DNA from: Blattamonas nauphoetae | Taxonomy: Eukaryota; Preaxostyla; Oxymonadida | Length of the DNA stretch: 64,000 nucleotides | Assembly: GCA_033064195.1 (NCBI GenBank) | Contig: JARBJD010000006.1 | Location: forward strand, 712,146-776,145 | Direction of reading: 5' to 3' | Part shown: piece after piece, positions 26,758-37,869 of the stretch | How positions within the stretch are numbered: position 1 is the first letter of the stretch | How the letters are laid out: every line of letters begins with the position of its first letter | Translations under genes and position numbers: made by a program | The notes under the pieces: model-generated | Told to the model about the DNA's origin: nothing | Seen by the model: the letters and a program-made list of their open reading frames with translations, nothing else | Database searches by the model: none

Positions 26758-28079
26758 ATGATACCATTTCTACTGCTGATTTGCCGCCTGGCGAAGACTG
26801 AAGAAGAACCATTGTATTCATTGCGTGTTCTACTTGATGATGCGAAAGTGAAGATTTCGAACAACGAAGACTCCTTCCTAACGGAATTGAAGGTTCCGAG
26901 CGGGCCATATGAGATTGGAAGCTATTTGTTTGAATCGTGTACACTACATCTCCGAGGAAACAAAACAAGAATCATGCATATAGAGGGAAGAAACGATGCA
27001 TCAAAACCAAAAATGAAAGTTGAAGGGAAGAATGGGATTGAAGGAGAAAGAGGGACTCAGATGATGTTTGTGTTGTGGAATAGCTCAGTGTCACTGTGCG
27101 ATATGTTCTTGGACAGCGGTGGGATGGGGACGAGTGTTGGAAGATTGTGGTCGTCGTGTATGTTGATTGTTGAGTGCAGGATGGTCTCGAACGCGGAAAC
27201 GTCGCCATTTGCGATTGTTGGAGGTAGGAGTGGAGTGGGGAGTTCAGTGTGTGTGATTAACAGTGTGCATGAATCGAGTGGATATGTAGTGCTTCTTCCA
27301 GTTGTGTGTGCGATGGAGAAGTGTTCGGATGAGGGCAGGAGTTCGAAGTTGGAGTGGTTGGATGGGAGTCGGGATGGGTGGGGAGAGAATGGAGGGATTT
27401 ATGTGTCTGGGAGTGGTGTTTCAGTGTGTGATGTTGATCTTGTCGTTGGAAGTGGACCGCTGTTTGGAGAGTGGAAAAGTAACTCGACTTGTTTAAGTTT
27501 GTCAGTTAGGTTGAATTGTCCGGTGTGGACTCGTTTTATTGGGAGCAGGATTTGGAACACGACGAGCAGCGGGTGCCTTCGAGATGGAGTGAGAGTGAGA
27601 TGTGGAGGATTGGGAGGATTTATGGGAGGGATTGTTGAAGGGATTGTAGGTTGTTCTGTTTGGAGTTGCACGAACCATCTGAGTGGAACAGCGATTGTAG
27701 GAATGGGTGATGGGGGATCAGTGTTGTCGCACAACACGTCGTTCACTGGCTGCCACACCCCCTCCTCGCCCAACGATGACGACACTCGACACAATCAACA
27801 CTTCAAAATACAAACCGTCCTATCAAATGCAACCACTCCCAATCATGTTTTCACACTCTGCACGTTCAAGCAATGCACTTCGAGTGAAAATGGAGGAGCG
27901 ATCTCCGCAGACAATGTGGATATCAACCTCAAAATTGAGAAATGCTCTTTCCACGCTTGCTCTTCTTCGTCCTACGTCGGAGGAGCAGTCTATATCTACA
28001 TTTCTTCATCATACTCATCCACCTTCTCTCTCACCTCATCTTCCTTCGTTAGTTGTTCTTCTGGTGAACGGGGAGGAAG
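26758..28079 (+). pseudogene. Right-handed beta-helix surface protein, 5' part, disrupted
   Basis: ATG 26758 is followed by a short hydrophobic leader (MIPFLLLICRL), consistent with secretion. Beyond residue 100 come irregular 20-25 residue rungs with G, S, C and V, such as GNKT, CSFHAC, ENGGAIS and YVGGAVYI. This pattern is typical of the right-handed beta-helix (Pmp-like) surface proteins abundant in oxymonads. The frame runs into the TIR element at 28080 and stops six nt into it. Subtracting the element and one 8-bp duplication (2924 nt) joins it in frame to 31004-31445. Codon composition shifts from GT-rich (27100-27700) to C-rich (27740 on), as repeat modules often do. Confidence 0.8.
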
Positions 28080-28226
28080 TAGGCATGGCTGACCGGCCAA
28101 AAGTGCCGGTCAGTGTCACCTCAGAATTCGTATAAGGGTCAGATCTCTCTTGATTTGTAAATTGCATGTTTTAATCAAGAATATGACAAAATTGCTGAGA
28201 TTCATGTTCAGATTAACTTCAAATTC

Positions 28227-29851
28227 GTGGTGAGAAGGCAACCCTCTTTGTATGTTTCTCTTTTTCGTCAGCCTCTCTTCACACTTCAGTTTTATGAGAA
28301 CAAGGAAGAGGAGGCTGTTTGTCATGCATTCTGCGACAAATATAATTTGCCAAACACTGTGTACTCCCATCTTGTTTCCCAAGTAACCGCAATGCATCAA
28401 CAATTCCTTCAAACTGAAGAAGAAGAAGAATCAGAATGGGAAGAGGAAGATGAGAGCTATGAAGAAGAGGAAGTTGAAGAAGACTCCGAATCTGATGCTC
28501 CTCTTCCTCAAAAGCCGCTCCAACAACCCGACGCTGGCGCAGACATCATCAATCCATTCACGCCACCACTGCCTCCAATCCCGACAAAATCGAACGACTG
28601 ACACGACAAGGAGAAGAAATCAGAGACAAGAGAGAACAAGCAGCGAGAGAAAAAGAGAAGAACGAAACTCCAAAAACAAAACAGATAACAGAAAAGGAAA
28701 AGACAAAGATTGTGAACAAACTGTATGAAGACGCCAAACGACGAAACTACGTACATTATAAGCAGCTTGCAGAACCGAGACATGTTGTGGAAGGAAGGGT
28801 GTATGGAGAAACCGACGATCAGCCGCCGCATTCCGAATGCACTTTCCATCCGACAATTCGCAAAAAGAGCCAAAATCTCACAAGTACTCGTCGAACACTT
28901 GCTGAAGAAGACGAGTCCGTTACCACGAGACTGTATAAAGACGCGATGAAGAGGAAGGAATCACAATCGGCCCTCGAAGAAGATACTCCACAATTCAAAG
29001 ATTCTTTACGAGGTTCATCACATGTTGGAGGAAGGACCATTCGAAGTGCACACTCTTCAGATCGGATGAACGACACCACACAAATCTCGCAGGAATTAAC
29101 TGAAAAGATGGAAAAAGAAATCGCACAACAGAAGTACCTTGAAGTAACCAAGAAAAATCGGAAAGAACGGTTGGACAACGAACACGACGAGAAGGAAGAG
29201 CCGAAAACAACATTTCGAAAGCGAATTGTGCTCCCTTCAGACGAAATATCACCAAAGAAAGTGACATTGGAACAAAACAGAATCGACTCTCTCACAGCTC
29301 GCCTTTATCGTGAATCTGAAACCATCGAGAAGCGAAGAATGGAGCGAGCGCGGGTTCTTGATCACGAAGCGAAGGAACAATCGAAAACAGCCCGCCCAGA
29401 CAAGAAATCACTTACGACTGTGGAACAGAAGCAACGGAAGCGGATTGATGAGGTGTTTCTTCATTTAGTTTCTGGATTACGAGAGTGGAAAAGTGAGAAT
29501 GTTGGATCCCCAAATTTACCCGATGATGGAGAAAACCACACCACCCCACAACAAAATCAAGAAACAGAAGCCCTTTTGAATGTGACAGAGCTTGGAGTGG
29601 TCATTTCTCTCTCCCAACCATCCGCCTCAATCAGAAAATGGAAAAACTTGAACAAACCGCATTTCGAAACAAGCGCACTCTCGCCCACCCTCCCAACTCG
29701 CATCGAGGATGCTTCAAGCCCATATTTCACAACTCAGAATCTCTCCACTCCAAAGACAGAGTTGTCCGTCCCTGAAAGTTCAGTCAGTTTGGTAAATGGT
29801 AACAGGTCCCACTTTTGTCATCAATGGGACGATCTTATTTCATTTCATTGA
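28227..29851 (+). pseudogene. Captured host-type gene inside the TIR element, frameshifted
   Basis: The coding trace starts as far up as about 28160 (reading EYDKIAEIHVQINF) with no ATG, so the 5' end is missing. It continues through FYENKEEEAVCHAFCDKYNL, an acidic E-rich stretch, a one-base frame change near 28580, and then a 380-residue charged region with RLYEDAKRR/RLYKDAMKR repeats and CTFHPTIRKKS. The order small folded N-domain, acidic linker, then RLY..A.KR / TF.P.I repeats resembles a family of protist cytoskeletal-type proteins that I know only by pattern. A likely separated C-terminal piece is at 30282-30431. No mobility function is suggested, so this looks like sequence capture by the element. 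Confidence 0.5.
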
Positions 29852-30155
29852 ATTGATTCTATGTAGACATAAAAATCTTCAAATACGAATGAAATGGAAC
29901 AAGAATCAATAATCTTCAGAGAAAGAATGAGATGGTCTCCGGTTTGTATCGTCATCCGAGATCTTGGAAGAACGAAGAATGGGGCCGACGGGCAAATCAG
30001 ACTAAGAAAGAATATTTAGATGTTATTATTCAGTTCTTTCAAGTCCTGTGGTCGTAAATCCTTGTTTTGAACGAAAGGAGCACTATTTGTGATGTCTGTG
30101 TAACCTGTCAGAATTGATCGTCCCATTGACGGAGAAAGTGGGACCTGTTACCATT
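29795..30155. mobile_element. Nested TA-flanked inverted-repeat MITE (361 bp)
   Basis: The left end AATGGTAACAGGTCCCAC matches the complement of the right end exactly over 18 nt. It continues with a CAATGGGACGATC block in both arms. TA flanks each side (29793-29794 and 30156-30157). The target itself is palindromic: CAGTCAGTTTG before, CAAACTGACTG after. It lies inside the larger 8-bp-duplication element, near the end of the captured gene. Confidence 0.75.
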
Positions 30156-30281
30156 TATCAAACTGACTGTTTCGAACCGTTCCCACAACAGTCTCCGCTG
30201 AGTGGAACAGGCAAAACATCATTTCTTTCGCTTGCATCATTAGATGCTGTTCACAGGATCCGAAATTCAATCACTTTCTAG

Positions 30282-30431
30282 ATAGAATTGGAAAGCCCGA
30301 AAGATGTTGATGCCGAACTGATTGAAAACGAAGAACCGCCTTTTGGACTGAGTTTTCACGTGTGGGAGGATGTAATCCATCATGTTGCGTTCGTTTTGGA
30401 GGAGAAGCTGCGATCTCGAGGTTTGAGATGA
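30282..30431 (+). pseudogene. Possible C-terminal fragment of the captured gene
   Basis: A 49-codon frame reads VDAELIENEEPPFGLSFHVW and ends in TGA. It continues upstream in frame past a TAG at 30279-30281 that is one C-to-T change from CAG. Charge and style match the captured gene. The link is inference. Confidence 0.3.
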
Positions 30432-31003
30432 GAAGGAAGGAGACAGAAAGTGTTTCAAAGATAAAGTGACATTTGGAGAGTCATATTCGTATTTTTCTTC
30501 ATTTTTGGACCTTTTCAGAAATCACTGAGAGAATTAGATGAACATTATCATGCCTAAATCGAGCGATCTCACGGTTGATTTGGTTCAAACAAAATTACAT
30601 TCTTTGACTCTTGGGAGACTTCAAAAACAATATAAGTCAAATTTCAAGAAATAATCCAAATATAACTTTCATATTGATGACATGTTTAAATAAAACGAAT
30701 TGATGTGTCCGGAATCTCAATCGATCAGATGCCCATTACTGTTTTTGAGATCGTTCCGGCAAGAAATGTCTTAAAATGTGAGTGAAACTGCTTCATTGAA
30801 GTGATAATGATTCAATAATGGTCAATTCGAGGTAATAATGTGAATAATCGTGTAATTGATTCGAATTTCGGTTTCTATAAAAGCCACCTCGGAGAAATGG
30901 TAAATCTCGATTATGGGTTCCGATATTTCTCCGGTCAGTGACCGTCAGTACTTTTCGATGAAAACTGACCGGTCAGTGCCGGTCAGCCATGCCTAGGAGG
31001 AAG

Positions 31004-31445
31004 CGTGGGCCTCTATTATCTCTCTACTGTTACCATTTCTGACTGTGTCTTCGTCAATTCAACAACTTCGAAATGGGGAGGCGCTTTGTACCTCTCATCA
31101 TGTAAGTTCAGTGCTCCAACTGGTCTCTCGAACAGTCTCTTCCAGGATTGCGAGCAAACGAGCACACCAAGTTTAGAATACGGCGGTGGAGCCGTCAGGA
31201 TGTACAGCTGCTCTTTTCAACAGTTGTCCTATGTCCAGCTCAGAGATTGCTCCTCTGCGAATGAACGTGGGCATGATATCTATCTCATCAACACATTGTT
31301 CGGCTCGGACTCGTTCTCGACTTGTGACTCCACATCGTCATCCACACATCGAGTGACGATTAGCACGACAGATTTTAGCAATCTCCTCGCCAACCCGGAA
31401 TTCGAAGCAAGAGTCAGATCAGGCATGTATTACCCCTGTAGGTAA
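31004..31445 (+). pseudogene. Right-handed beta-helix surface protein, 3' part after the insertion
   Basis: This continues the frame of 26758-28079 once the 2916-bp element and one GGAGGAAG are removed (GGS followed by VGLYYLSTVTISDC). The rungs WGGALYLSS, GGGAVRMYSC and ERGHDIYLIN carry the same G/S/aromatic beta-helix signature. The gene stops at 31445 just where a CCTGTAGG-containing dispersed repeat begins, so the natural C-terminus may also have been replaced. Confidence 0.75.
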
Positions 31446-31515
31446 AATGAACCCTGTAGGTAATCGGAACCCTGTAGGGTGTGAAGTGGGTCAATATTTT
31501 TGACATCATAGAAAA
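31434..31515. repeat. Dispersed CCTGTAGG repeat, copy 1
   Basis: Three CCCTGTAGG units precede GGGTCAATATTTTTGACATC. An inverted relative is at about 45085-45172. It may mark the end of an unrecognised mobile element that truncated the beta-helix gene. From 31516 to about 32040 I see no gene. Confidence 0.45.
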
Positions 31516-32040: not shown

Positions 32041-33673
32041 TCGAGTCGAATGGAGAGAGTTCGAGGGCGATGGTGAGTGTTTGGTGGCGATGGAGGACGA
32101 TGGTGAGTGTTTGGTGGCGATGGAAGACGATGGTGAGTGTTTGATGGCGATGGAGGACGATGGTGAGTGTTTGGTGGCGATGGAAGACGATGGTGAGTGT
32201 TTGGTGGCGATGGAAGACGATGGTGAGTGTTTGATGGCGATGGAAGACGATGGTGAGTGTTTGGTGGCGTTGAAGGACGATGCGGAGTGTTTGGTGGCGA
32301 TGGAGGACGATGGTGAGTGTTTGGTGGCGATGGAAGACGATGGTGAGTGTTTGATGGCGATGGAGGACGATGGTGAGTGTTTGGTGGCGATGGAAGACGA
32401 TGGTGAGTGTTTGATGGCGATGGAGGACGATGGTGAGTGTTTGGTGGCGATGGAGGACGATGGTGAGTGTTTGGTGGCGATGGAAGACGATGGTGAGTGT
32501 TTGATGGCGATGGAGGACGATGGTGAGTGTTTGGTGGCGATGGAAGACGATGGTGAGTGTTTGATGGCGATGGAGGACGATGGTGAGTGTTTGGTGGCGA
32601 TGGAAGACGATGGTGAGTGTTTGGTGGCGATGGAAGACGATGGTGAGTGTTTGGTGGCGATGGAGGACGATGGTGAGTGTTTGGTGGCGATGGAAGACGA
32701 TGGTGAGTGTTTGGTGGCGATGGAGGACGATGAGGAGTGTTTGGTGGCGATGGAAGACGATGGTGAGTGTTTGGTGGCGATGGAAGACGATGAGGAGTGT
32801 TTGGTGGCGATGGAAGACGATGGTGAGTGTTTGGTGGCGATGGAAGACGATGGTGAGTGTTTGATGGCGATGGAGGACGATGGTGAGTGTTTGGTGGCGA
32901 TGGAAGACGATGGTGAGTGTTTGGTGGCGATGGAAGACGATGGTGAGTGTTTGGTGGCGATGGAGGACGATGGTGAGTGTTTGGTGGCGATGGAAGACGA
33001 TGGTGAGTGTTTGGTGGCGATGGAGGACGATGAGGTGTTTGGTGGCGATGGAAGACGATGGTGAGTGTTTGGTGGCGATGGAAGACGATGGTGAGTGTTT
33101 GGTGGCGTTGAAGGACGATGCGGAGTGTTTGGTGGCGATGGAAGACGATGGTGAGTGTTTGATGGCGATGGAGGACGATGGTGAGTGTTTGGTGGCGATG
33201 GAAGACGATGGTGAGTGTTTGGTGGCGTTGAAGGACGATGCGGAGTGTTTGGTGGCGATGGAGGACGATGGTGAGTGTTTGGTGGCGATGGAGGACGATG
33301 GTGAGTGTTTGGTGGCGATGGAAGACGATGGTGAGTGTTTGGTGGCGATGGAAGACGATGGTGAGTGTTTGGTGGCGATGGAAGACGATGGTGAGTGTTT
33401 GGTGGCGATGGAGGACGATGGTGAGTGTTTGGTGGCGATGGAAGACGATGGTGAGTGTTTGATGGCGATGGAGGACGATGGTGAGTGTTTGGTGGCGATG
33501 GAAGACGATGGTGAGTGTTTGGTGGCGATGGAAGACGATGGTGAGTGTTTGGTGGCGATGAAGGACGATGGTGAGTGTTTGGTGGCGATGGAAGACGATG
33601 GTGAGTGTTTGGTGGCGATGGAGGACGATGAGGAGTGTTTGGTGGCGATGGAAGACGATGAAGAGTGTTATGT
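32041..33673. repeat. 30-bp minisatellite, about 54 units
   Basis: The repeat unit is GGTGAGTGTTTGGTGGCGAT plus GGAAGACGAT, with variants GGAGGACGAT, TTGATGGCG, GATGAGGAG and a few GTTGAAGGACGATGCG units. One unit near 33030 is 2 bp shorter and shifts the frame of everything after it. Because 30 is a multiple of 3 and the unit lacks stops in several frames, long ORFs arise on both strands (MEDDGECLVA repeats on +, SIATKHSPSS on -). I treat it as a satellite. Confidence 0.9.
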
Positions 33674-33682
33674 GGCGATGGA

Positions 33683-34372
33683 GGGGAGCTGTGTGTATGG
33701 TTGAGGAGAGGAGGAGGGGAGCTGAGTGTATGGTTGAGGAGAGGAGGAGGGAAGCTGAGTGTATGGTTGAGGAGAGGAGGAGGGGAGCTGAGTGTATGGT
33801 TGAGGAGAGGAGGAGGGGAGCTGTGTGTATGGTTGAGGAGAGGAGGAGGGGAGCTGAGTGTATGGTTGAGGAGAGGAGGAGGGAAGCTGAGTGTATGGTT
33901 GAGGAGAGGAGGAGGGAAGCTGAGTGTATGGTTGAGGAGAGGAGGAGGGGAGCTGAGTGTATGGTTGAGGAGAGGAGGAGGGGAGCTGAGTGTATGGTTG
34001 AGGAGAGGAGGAGGGGAGCTGTGTGTATGGTTGAGGAGAGGAGGAGGGGAGCTGAGTGTATGGTTGAGGAGAGGAGGAGGGGAGCTGTGTGACTGGTTGA
34101 GGAGAGGAGGAGGGGAGCTGAGTGTATGGTTGAGGAGAGGAGGAGGGGAGCTGAGTGTATGGTTGAGGAGAGGAGGAGAGGAGCTGAGTGTATGGTTGAG
34201 GAGAGGAGGAGGGGAGCTGTGTGACTGGTTGAGGAGAGGAGGAGGGGAGCTGAGTGTATGGTTGAGGAGAGGAGGAGGGGAGCTGAGTGTATGGTTGAGG
34301 AGAGGAGGAGAGGAGCTGAGTGTATGGTTGAGGAGAGGAGGAGGGAAGCTATGTGACTGGTTGAGGAGGGGA
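33683..34372. repeat. 33-bp minisatellite, about 21 units
   Basis: The unit is GGAGCTGAGTGTATGGTTGA followed by GGAGAGGAGGAGG, with TGTGTGTATGG and TGTGTGACTGG variants. It directly follows the 30-bp array. A single minus-strand frame (32017-34461) stays open through both arrays and reads Pro/Ser/His-rich 10- and 11-residue repeats. There is no non-repetitive coding support at either end. Confidence 0.9.
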
Positions 34373-34679
34373 GCTGCGGGTTGAGTTGGTGCAGGGAGGA
34401 ATGGACTCCATCGCAAATGAGACCTGGAAGAAAAAGAAGTCACTAAGAAGGATTGGGACATATCGTTTTTCCTTCCACTTCCGAAATGTACTTGATGCTA
34501 TGATCCAAAGTCTCGTGGAGAAATTGAGTGAAGGTCAGACAACCTACAAGAAGAGAAGACAAGAAAGAGAATGATTGTTGGTGAAAGAGAAGAAATGTGA
34601 AAAATAAAAAAGGAATTGTCTAAAATAGAAATCAGTAATGAAAAATAAGTGTTTAAGTGTTGTCCTCACTCATTCCAAG

Positions 34680-37127: not shown

Positions 37128-37668
37128 GCTCCCCCAACTCATCCACAAATGACCTCTCCACTCCCCGAACTCATCCACAAATGACCTCTCCACTCCCCGA
37201 ACTCATCCACAAATGACCTCTCCACTCCCCGAACTCATCCACAAATGACCTCTCCACTCCCCGAACTCATCCACAAATGACCTCTCCACTCCCCGAACTC
37301 ATCCGCAAATGACCTCTCCACTCCCCGAACTCATCCGCAAATGACCTCTCCACTCCCCGAACTCATCCGCAAATGACCTCTCCACTCCCCGAACTCATCC
37401 ACAAATGACCTCTCCACTCCCCGAACTCATCCGCAAATGACCTCTCCACTCCCCGAACTCATCCGCAAATGACCTCTCCACTCCCCGAACTCATCCGCAA
37501 ATGACCTCTCCACTCCCCGAACTCATCCACAAATGACCTCTCCACTCCCCGAACTCATCCGCAAATGACCTCTCCACTCCCCGAACTCATCCGCAAATGA
37601 CCTCTCCACTCCCCGAACTCATCCGCAAATGACCTCTCCACTCCCCGAACTCATCCACAAATAACATC
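37128..37668. repeat. 32-bp minisatellite, about 16-17 units
   Basis: The unit is ACTCATCC[A/G]CAAATGACC plus TCTCCACTCCCCGA. CCA and CCG variants alternate in blocks, suggesting multi-unit expansion steps. The 32-bp length is not a multiple of 3, so it cannot be a coding repeat. It decays at both ends into related single units (CCCCCAACTCATC). Confidence 0.9.
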
Positions 37669-37869
37669 TCCTTTCCCCCATCCCATCACAACTGCCCTCC
37701 TCTACCCCCAACTCATCGCGATTTGACCTCTTGACCCCTCCAATCAACCTGAATATGCCCACTCATCCCCTCCAATCCACCTCGCATGACCCTCTCTTCA
37801 TTCACCACCATCCCTCTTTTTTTCACCGACAAACATCCCATTTCTGCCTACCATTTTGGTTGACCTCGC

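Follow-up and report, generated by a model that had tools for sequence, protein, structure and literature searches.

A 2916-nt element at positions 28080–30995 of the window (the whole stretch of DNA analysed, 64,000 nucleotides, C556:712146–776145 of Blattamonas nauphoetae) is very probably a Pack-TYPE DNA transposon, a non-autonomous element that carries a captured gene, and the superfamily is most likely hAT. The element combines inverted repeats and target-site duplications with an interior of cellular origin whose parent lies elsewhere in the genome, and no transposase of its own was recognized. Its relatives have fixed short ends, 8-bp duplications, near-identical copies at separate sites and swappable interiors. 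The initial annotation had compared the insertion to Pack-type transduplication, a reading now strengthened by the shared ends, the exchangeable interiors and the donor-like genes of four classes.

The window element and its donor gene

The features of the window copy are collected in table 1. The terminal repeats had been described as identical over 17 nt; their arms are indeed perfect, and their true length is 18 nt. The right end contains CCGGTCAG subterminal repeats. Together with one 8-nt duplication the element accounts for 2924 nt. Removal of these nucleotides rejoins the flanks into a single 587-aa open reading frame (ORF), as had been noted along with the duplications themselves; with the element present, the host-gene frame ends at amino acid 444. 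The label 'surface protein' or 'beta-helix' given to the interrupted gene finds no counterpart in Pfam, where positions 26758–28089 matched no family at E ≤ 1. Three short CCCTGTAGG repeats lie at the stop of this gene (31429–31480). Further downstream, long tandem arrays with periods of 30 (53.9 copies), 33 (21 copies) and 32 (18.5 copies) occupy 32068–34373 and 37129–37717, and an 868-codon minus-strand frame spans the first of these regions.

Table 1. Features of the element, its host gene and its cargo (positions in the window).
Feature	Position	Strand	Remarks
Host gene, 5' part	26758..28079	+	interrupted; no Pfam match
Left target-site duplication	28072..28079	.	GGAGGAAG, exact
Left terminal inverted repeat	28080..28097	+	18 bp, perfect
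Left end common to 14 class representatives	28080..28147	+	class medians 66–71 bp; single pairs 40–292 bp
ATG in terminal repeat	28085..28135	+	16 open codons (MADRPKVPVSVTSEFV), then stop
Captured cellular DNA	28211..30648	+	matches BLNAU_5211 locus; split by nested element; lacks donor start codon
Counterpart of modelled donor intron	28250..28289	+	40 nt (GTATGT...TTCAG); 42 nt in donor
Deletion junction	28588..28592		46 bp lost versus donor; 5-bp microhomology AATCG; frame shifted
Deletion junction	28741..28747		108 bp lost versus donor; 7-bp microhomology
Deletion junction	29073..29079		174 bp lost versus donor; ~7-bp microhomology
Nested element	29781..30169	.	389 bp; 54-nt imperfect inverted ends (91%); 2-bp TT duplication
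Junction	30418..30420		1069 bp of donor missing; clear microhomology absent
Right end common to 14 class representatives	30878..30995	-	class medians 106–118 bp; single pairs 95–284 bp
Right terminal inverted repeat	30978..30995	-	18 bp
Right target-site duplication	30996..31003	.	GGAGGAAG, exact
Host gene, 3' part	31004..31445	+	in frame with 5' part after excision of insert and one duplication

A parent gene for the cargo, which the initial annotation presupposed, is present on contig C190. The window cargo matches this locus in five blocks at 92–97% and one 164-bp block at 88%. The locus contains a 1104-aa ORF corresponding to the public protein BLNAU_5211 (99% over 100% of its length), and no terminal repeat was found at up to three mismatches in the 3694 bp read there (L032). 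The captured stretch begins past the start codon of the donor, in agreement with the 5' truncation originally described, and extends beyond its stop codon. The start codon and approximately 1 kb of donor sequence are absent from the window copy; the extra 1069 bp are mostly 3' coding sequence. Some 3 kb downstream, at C190:79312–79844, a second stretch of 534 bp matches part of the cargo at 91% and may be an incomplete duplicate of the donor gene.

The payload had also been called frameshifted. Its frame is indeed broken, and three features account for the break: donor segments have been deleted, the modelled intron has been kept, and a 389-bp element is nested in the cargo. This nested element, which was missing from the earlier description, is also missing from another copy of the class (L074), whose empty site reveals the TT duplication; at least 13 further places in the genome match it. 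The window copy would have landed in the host gene and the 389-bp element in the window copy, in either order. Three of the deletions can be dated relative to capture: a copy on C195 is collinear with the donor across the 46-, 108- and 174-bp segments, which were therefore lost after capture. The C195 copy also has the 1069-bp gap, plus one of about 47 bp that is peculiar to it.

Intron content was compared between parent and copy. The public donor model omits 14 residues that are present in the open frame, and the corresponding 42 nt are intron-like and apparently constitute an intron. Because this modelled intron persists in the element, the window cargo was probably captured from DNA rather than RNA, subject to the intron model.

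A family with common ends and exchangeable interiors

The genome searched (B. nauphoetae, 88.3 Mb in 837 contigs) contains 274 copies of the 17-base end (133 + 141), against none (0 + 0) for a reversed-pattern control, so that other elements with the same ends, anticipated in the initial annotation, do exist. One sequence type of right end occurs 53 times. A shorter right-end pattern gives 186 matches, which include decayed or internal ends since the outer 11 bases were not demanded. The sample studied comprises 40 stretches: 35 with opposite-facing ends, chosen by eye among the first 100 of the 274 end sites, and five window-class places. Perfect 8-bp duplications flank 34 of the 39 sampled element pairs with both exact ends, or 35 of 40 if the window copy is included; this count leaves out L043, whose right end lies beyond the stretch, and L075, one end of which lacks its first two bases. 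Perfect duplications are absent from L049, L054, L064, L068 and L071, with 7 bases common to the flanks of L054 and L071.

The perfect duplications comprise 34 distinct sequences. An assembly artefact or ordinary segmental duplication could produce repeated copies, and some contigs do duplicate each other; against 34 different perfect duplications and 274 ends, however, such an origin has next to no probability. One such pair of contigs holds L077 (C548) and L078 (C696), two versions of an element that are 99.2% identical and whose duplications are reverse complements of each other. On these two grounds the pair is probably one insertion on two duplicated or allelic contigs.

The 42 element sequences fall into 19 similarity groups, eight of which have at least two copies in what is a partial sample. 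By-eye merging of versions that differ by nested inserts reduces the groups to approximately 14 content classes. Class representatives share little beyond their ends (table 1), where single class pairs have up to 292 bp (left) and 284 bp (right) in common at lower identity, and close to which CTGACCGG/CCGGTCAG repeats lie. Internal stretches are common to some class pairs (for example L060 with the L039 class and L057 with L047). No empty or transposase-bearing copy was recognized among those fetched, all of which measure at least 1.67 kb.

The window class has at least seven copies at 99–100%, and pieces of older copies match at approximately 83–98%. This conservation is what would be expected if the payload were the transposon's own gene and the C190 copy a host gene derived from it. 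Such a descent is nevertheless very improbable: the roughly 14 classes carry largely different interiors between the same ends, and the C190 gene has 1069 bp extra and a start codon, with the terminal repeat absent from the stretch read.

Further captured genes support the transduplication reading; with the window class included, a clear cellular donor is present for four of the five classes searched in full. The SUF class (L040, L047, L066 and others) carries fragments of a SUF-type desulfurase gene and encodes the domains SUFBD_core and Aminotran_5. Its donor, C833:161584–162727, matches at 97% over 1144 bp, and the donor frame runs past both edges where the element diverges. From these two domains and a name given in passages of PMC10703272, we infer its identity with the SufDSU gene of oxymonads. 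The Kelch class (L060) has a donor on C756, matched in four blocks at 84–93%, and the kinase class (L056) has a donor-like locus at C13:216512–216952 (92% over 441 bp). The L051 class (~26 copies) yielded as a possible donor match only 137 bp at 89% to the Kelch donor, plus a 73% match on C428. Six further classes were each represented by one 300-base piece, with 40 of 68 candidates scored. Five of these pieces have diverged matches elsewhere at 72–87%; L053 gave no match beyond its own copies in the 300 bases tried and the 40 of 68 candidates scored. As for family ends near the donors, two exact 17-mer end sites on C13 both lie more than 150 kb from the kinase donor, and the listed right ends on C190 are likewise more than 150 kb from theirs. 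One right-end type, the only type compared, is absent near the C756 and C833 donors.

Two gaps in the Kelch cargo were considered as introns. That reading was ruled out for the 157-bp gap, where the donor (L083) is open Kelch-like coding sequence, and is unsupported for the 90-bp gap, where the donor (L084) is open in one frame per strand. Clean gaps of this kind can be mistaken for spliced introns and would then point to processed mRNA, rather than genomic DNA, as the source of cargo. An mRNA source has very little probability, however, given the modelled intron kept in the element, the copying beyond the donor's stop codon and the open coding at the 157-bp gap; in addition, of the four gaps in the window class, three have microhomology at their edges and fall within continuous donor coding sequence.

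The SUF-class copy L047 (C19:134479–138045) is 3567 bp long, approximately 1.4 kb longer than L040 and L066, and has sequence in common with the L057 class as well as an extra right-end-like motif; this mixed content suggests that fusion between elements of separate classes may occur. On C147, an element of a second family (L071:244–4353; 4110 bp) is inserted in the right end of a copy of the window class, with ends TAGGCATGGGCAGYGGTCGGTC and duplication GTCAGTTT; its 481-aa ORF, the only long ORF tested, matched no Pfam family. An end related to this second type occurs at position 2765 of L030. Nested elements in L064 (1109–4773; 3665 bp) and L061 (1188–4190; 3003 bp) have 8-bp duplications and CAGGGCTTTCC or CAGGCTT ends, so that several hAT-like families may coexist.

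Superfamily and mechanism of transfer

Short ends of hAT elements start T/C-A-A/G-N-G, and hAT duplications are biased to nTnnnnAn. The ends of the present family start TAGGC (5'-TA) and match this start consensus. Among the 34 distinct duplications, T2 or A7 is found at 31 of 68 positions (one-sided p = 0.0009 versus 27%). Mutator-like elements and Pack-MULEs, which have 9–11-bp duplications and usually long ends, were rejected on the 8-bp duplications and 18-bp ends. The length of the duplications also fits hAT, whose target duplication is 8 nt (PMC8903248). Merlin needs 5'-GG ends (PMC8101967) and was rejected on the 5'-TA ends of the family. From ends and duplications, rather than from a transposase, we infer that the family most likely belongs to hAT.

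The PF05699 hAT dimerization domain occurs at 61 places in the genome. Neither these places nor the relatives of a hAT-like ORF on C195 were seen between the family ends listed, in a comparison by eye for which two of the end lists comprised 100 places each. Seven hAT ORFs from five loci, used as queries against the 42 element sequences, gave a best E value of 0.076. Pfam found no transposase domain in 18 element ORFs, a scan that covered classes other than L052. The early remark that no transposase is visible in the window copy thus extends to every copy examined, none of which contained a recognizable one. Two possible sources within the family were rejected: the insert of L049 (419-aa ORF) matched no Pfam family and is missing from other young copies of its class, and L063, considered as a deleted autonomous copy, has no hAT similarity inside it. 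L063 had drawn attention because a 300-base piece of it has a match on C179, where a hAT domain lies roughly 1.5 kb away.

Mobilization by another superfamily that makes 8-bp duplications, such as KDZ or P, would leave the same architecture. It is unlikely, though by no means negligible: no transposase was found between family ends and 8-bp duplications are also made outside hAT, but the TAGGC start, the end length of 18 bp and the T2/A7 bias agree with hAT, hAT domains are abundant in the genome, and the 5'-GG ends of Merlin, as described in passages of PMC8101967, are not seen. The ORFs of hAT type nearest to family ends adjoin two right ends, both outside the elements: one on C195, 438 bp away, and a match on C268, about 124 bp away. 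The C195 ORF, which we take to be hAT-like from its motifs and from relatives that fall close to PF05699 places on some contigs (for example C63, C83, C90 and C438), matched no Pfam family. It is a candidate for the trans-acting partner. The ORF at C195:25261–26136 forms a pair with C54:98882–99751, at 92% protein identity.

The proposed mechanism has three steps. (i) A transposase supplied in trans would move the DNA between family ends by cut-and-paste. (ii) New interiors would be copied at the DNA level from cellular genes, by template switching while an element is being repaired or replicated. (iii) Captured interiors would shrink by microhomology deletions as copies spread. Passages of PMC8277862 propose template switching in repair or replication for animal Pack-TIRs, and capture during repair or replication is discussed for Ds in parts of PMC3260210.

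Gene models, known systems and significance

The left terminal repeat contains an ATG, and all 42 left ends read encode MADRPKVPVSVT or a close variant from it. Seven public B. nauphoetae proteins match cargo, five of the window class and two of the SUF class, the latter both named 'putative Cysteine desulfurase'; six of the seven were placed, on C147, C13, C548, C9, C824 and C81. Four of them (P0122, P0123, P0124 and P0002), from copies other than the window copy, have MADRPKVP as their first residues, which is what the left terminal repeat encodes from its ATG. Public models for two unrelated cargos, BLNAU_5211-derived and SUF-derived, join terminal-repeat residues to captured coding sequence. 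P0126 (BLNAU_11305, locus L075) begins in flanking DNA and continues across the terminal repeat into cargo, and is a possible host–transposon chimera. P0125 starts within cargo, and P0003 with residues absent from L047. The public predictions mixed ab initio and transcript evidence (PMC10703272, in part), and terminal-repeat starts in such combined models may or may not be real. Past the first 12 codons the terminal-repeat frame differs between copies, and in many of them a stop follows immediately. This speaks against a conserved leader, and splicing would be required. Cargo coding sense runs away from the terminal-repeat ATG in all five classes probed, but these probes were hand-picked (Pfam hits, the window cargo and one long ORF) and are too few for a conclusion. 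That the left terminal repeat doubles as a start exon, making the family an expressed exon-shuffling machine, is possible but doubtful. If true, any sense-oriented captured fragment would give a chimeric protein with a transposon-encoded leader, SUF iron–sulfur chimeras included, and such exon shuffling would operate in a eukaryote without mitochondria.

Pack-TYPE elements are known in plants, and include the Pack-hAT elements of maize and rice (PMC8903248). According to passages of that source, these resemble the present family in being non-autonomous, with inverted ends, an 8-nt duplication, captured coding DNA and multicopy clusters; they differ in their hosts, which are plants, whereas the present host is a metamonad protist in which none of the fetched copies was recognized as empty or transposase-bearing. 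Maize Ds2 and Ds-l4 have hAT ends, variable filler DNA and an intron kept in a captured fragment, and the capture is ascribed to DNA repair (PMC3260210). The passages seen there report gene fragments in two Ds2 and nine Ds-l4 of 903 Ds-related elements and call this rare for hAT, in contrast to the clear donors for four of five fully searched classes in B. nauphoetae. Animal Pack-TIRs, for example the frog hAT-N8_XT, likewise carry captured sequence within terminal inverted repeats, with breakpoint microhomology and multicopy spread with distinct duplications (PMC8277862). The parts of that study available describe four multicopy cases in reference genomes and the Ssk-FB4 family, compared with eight multicopy groups of 19 in the partial sample here. 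Outside plants, animals and fungi, giant non-autonomous families of the brown alga Ectocarpus have been called analogous to Pack-MULEs and carry genes without transposase homology between transposon ends; they differ in being described as giant, and cellular donors go unnamed in the passages at hand (PMC12477816). Transduplication exists in fungi (PMC3538342, PMC6710886), and a paper on Mutator-like elements of Trichomonas cites Pack-MULEs, in passages that do not treat capture (PMC2725143). In a literature search that covered few subscription papers, neither Pack-TYPE nor transduplicating elements turned up for oxymonads or any other metamonads, in line with what the initial annotation had supposed for oxymonads.

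Some cargo copies of the family are annotated as real genes in the public set. The published annotation counts 25,221 genes, and according to the passages seen its masking was limited to repeats of known families (PMC10703272). Given this masking and the seven cargo-matching proteins, counts of gene families and of Fe–S assembly enzymes should be cleaned of cargo. Gene capture by cut-and-paste transposons, for which the record is rich in plants and sparser in animals, now extends to an oxymonad. Pieces of cellular genes look like the normal state of the B. nauphoetae family, which offers a direct route for the shuffling of coding DNA in an amitochondriate eukaryote.
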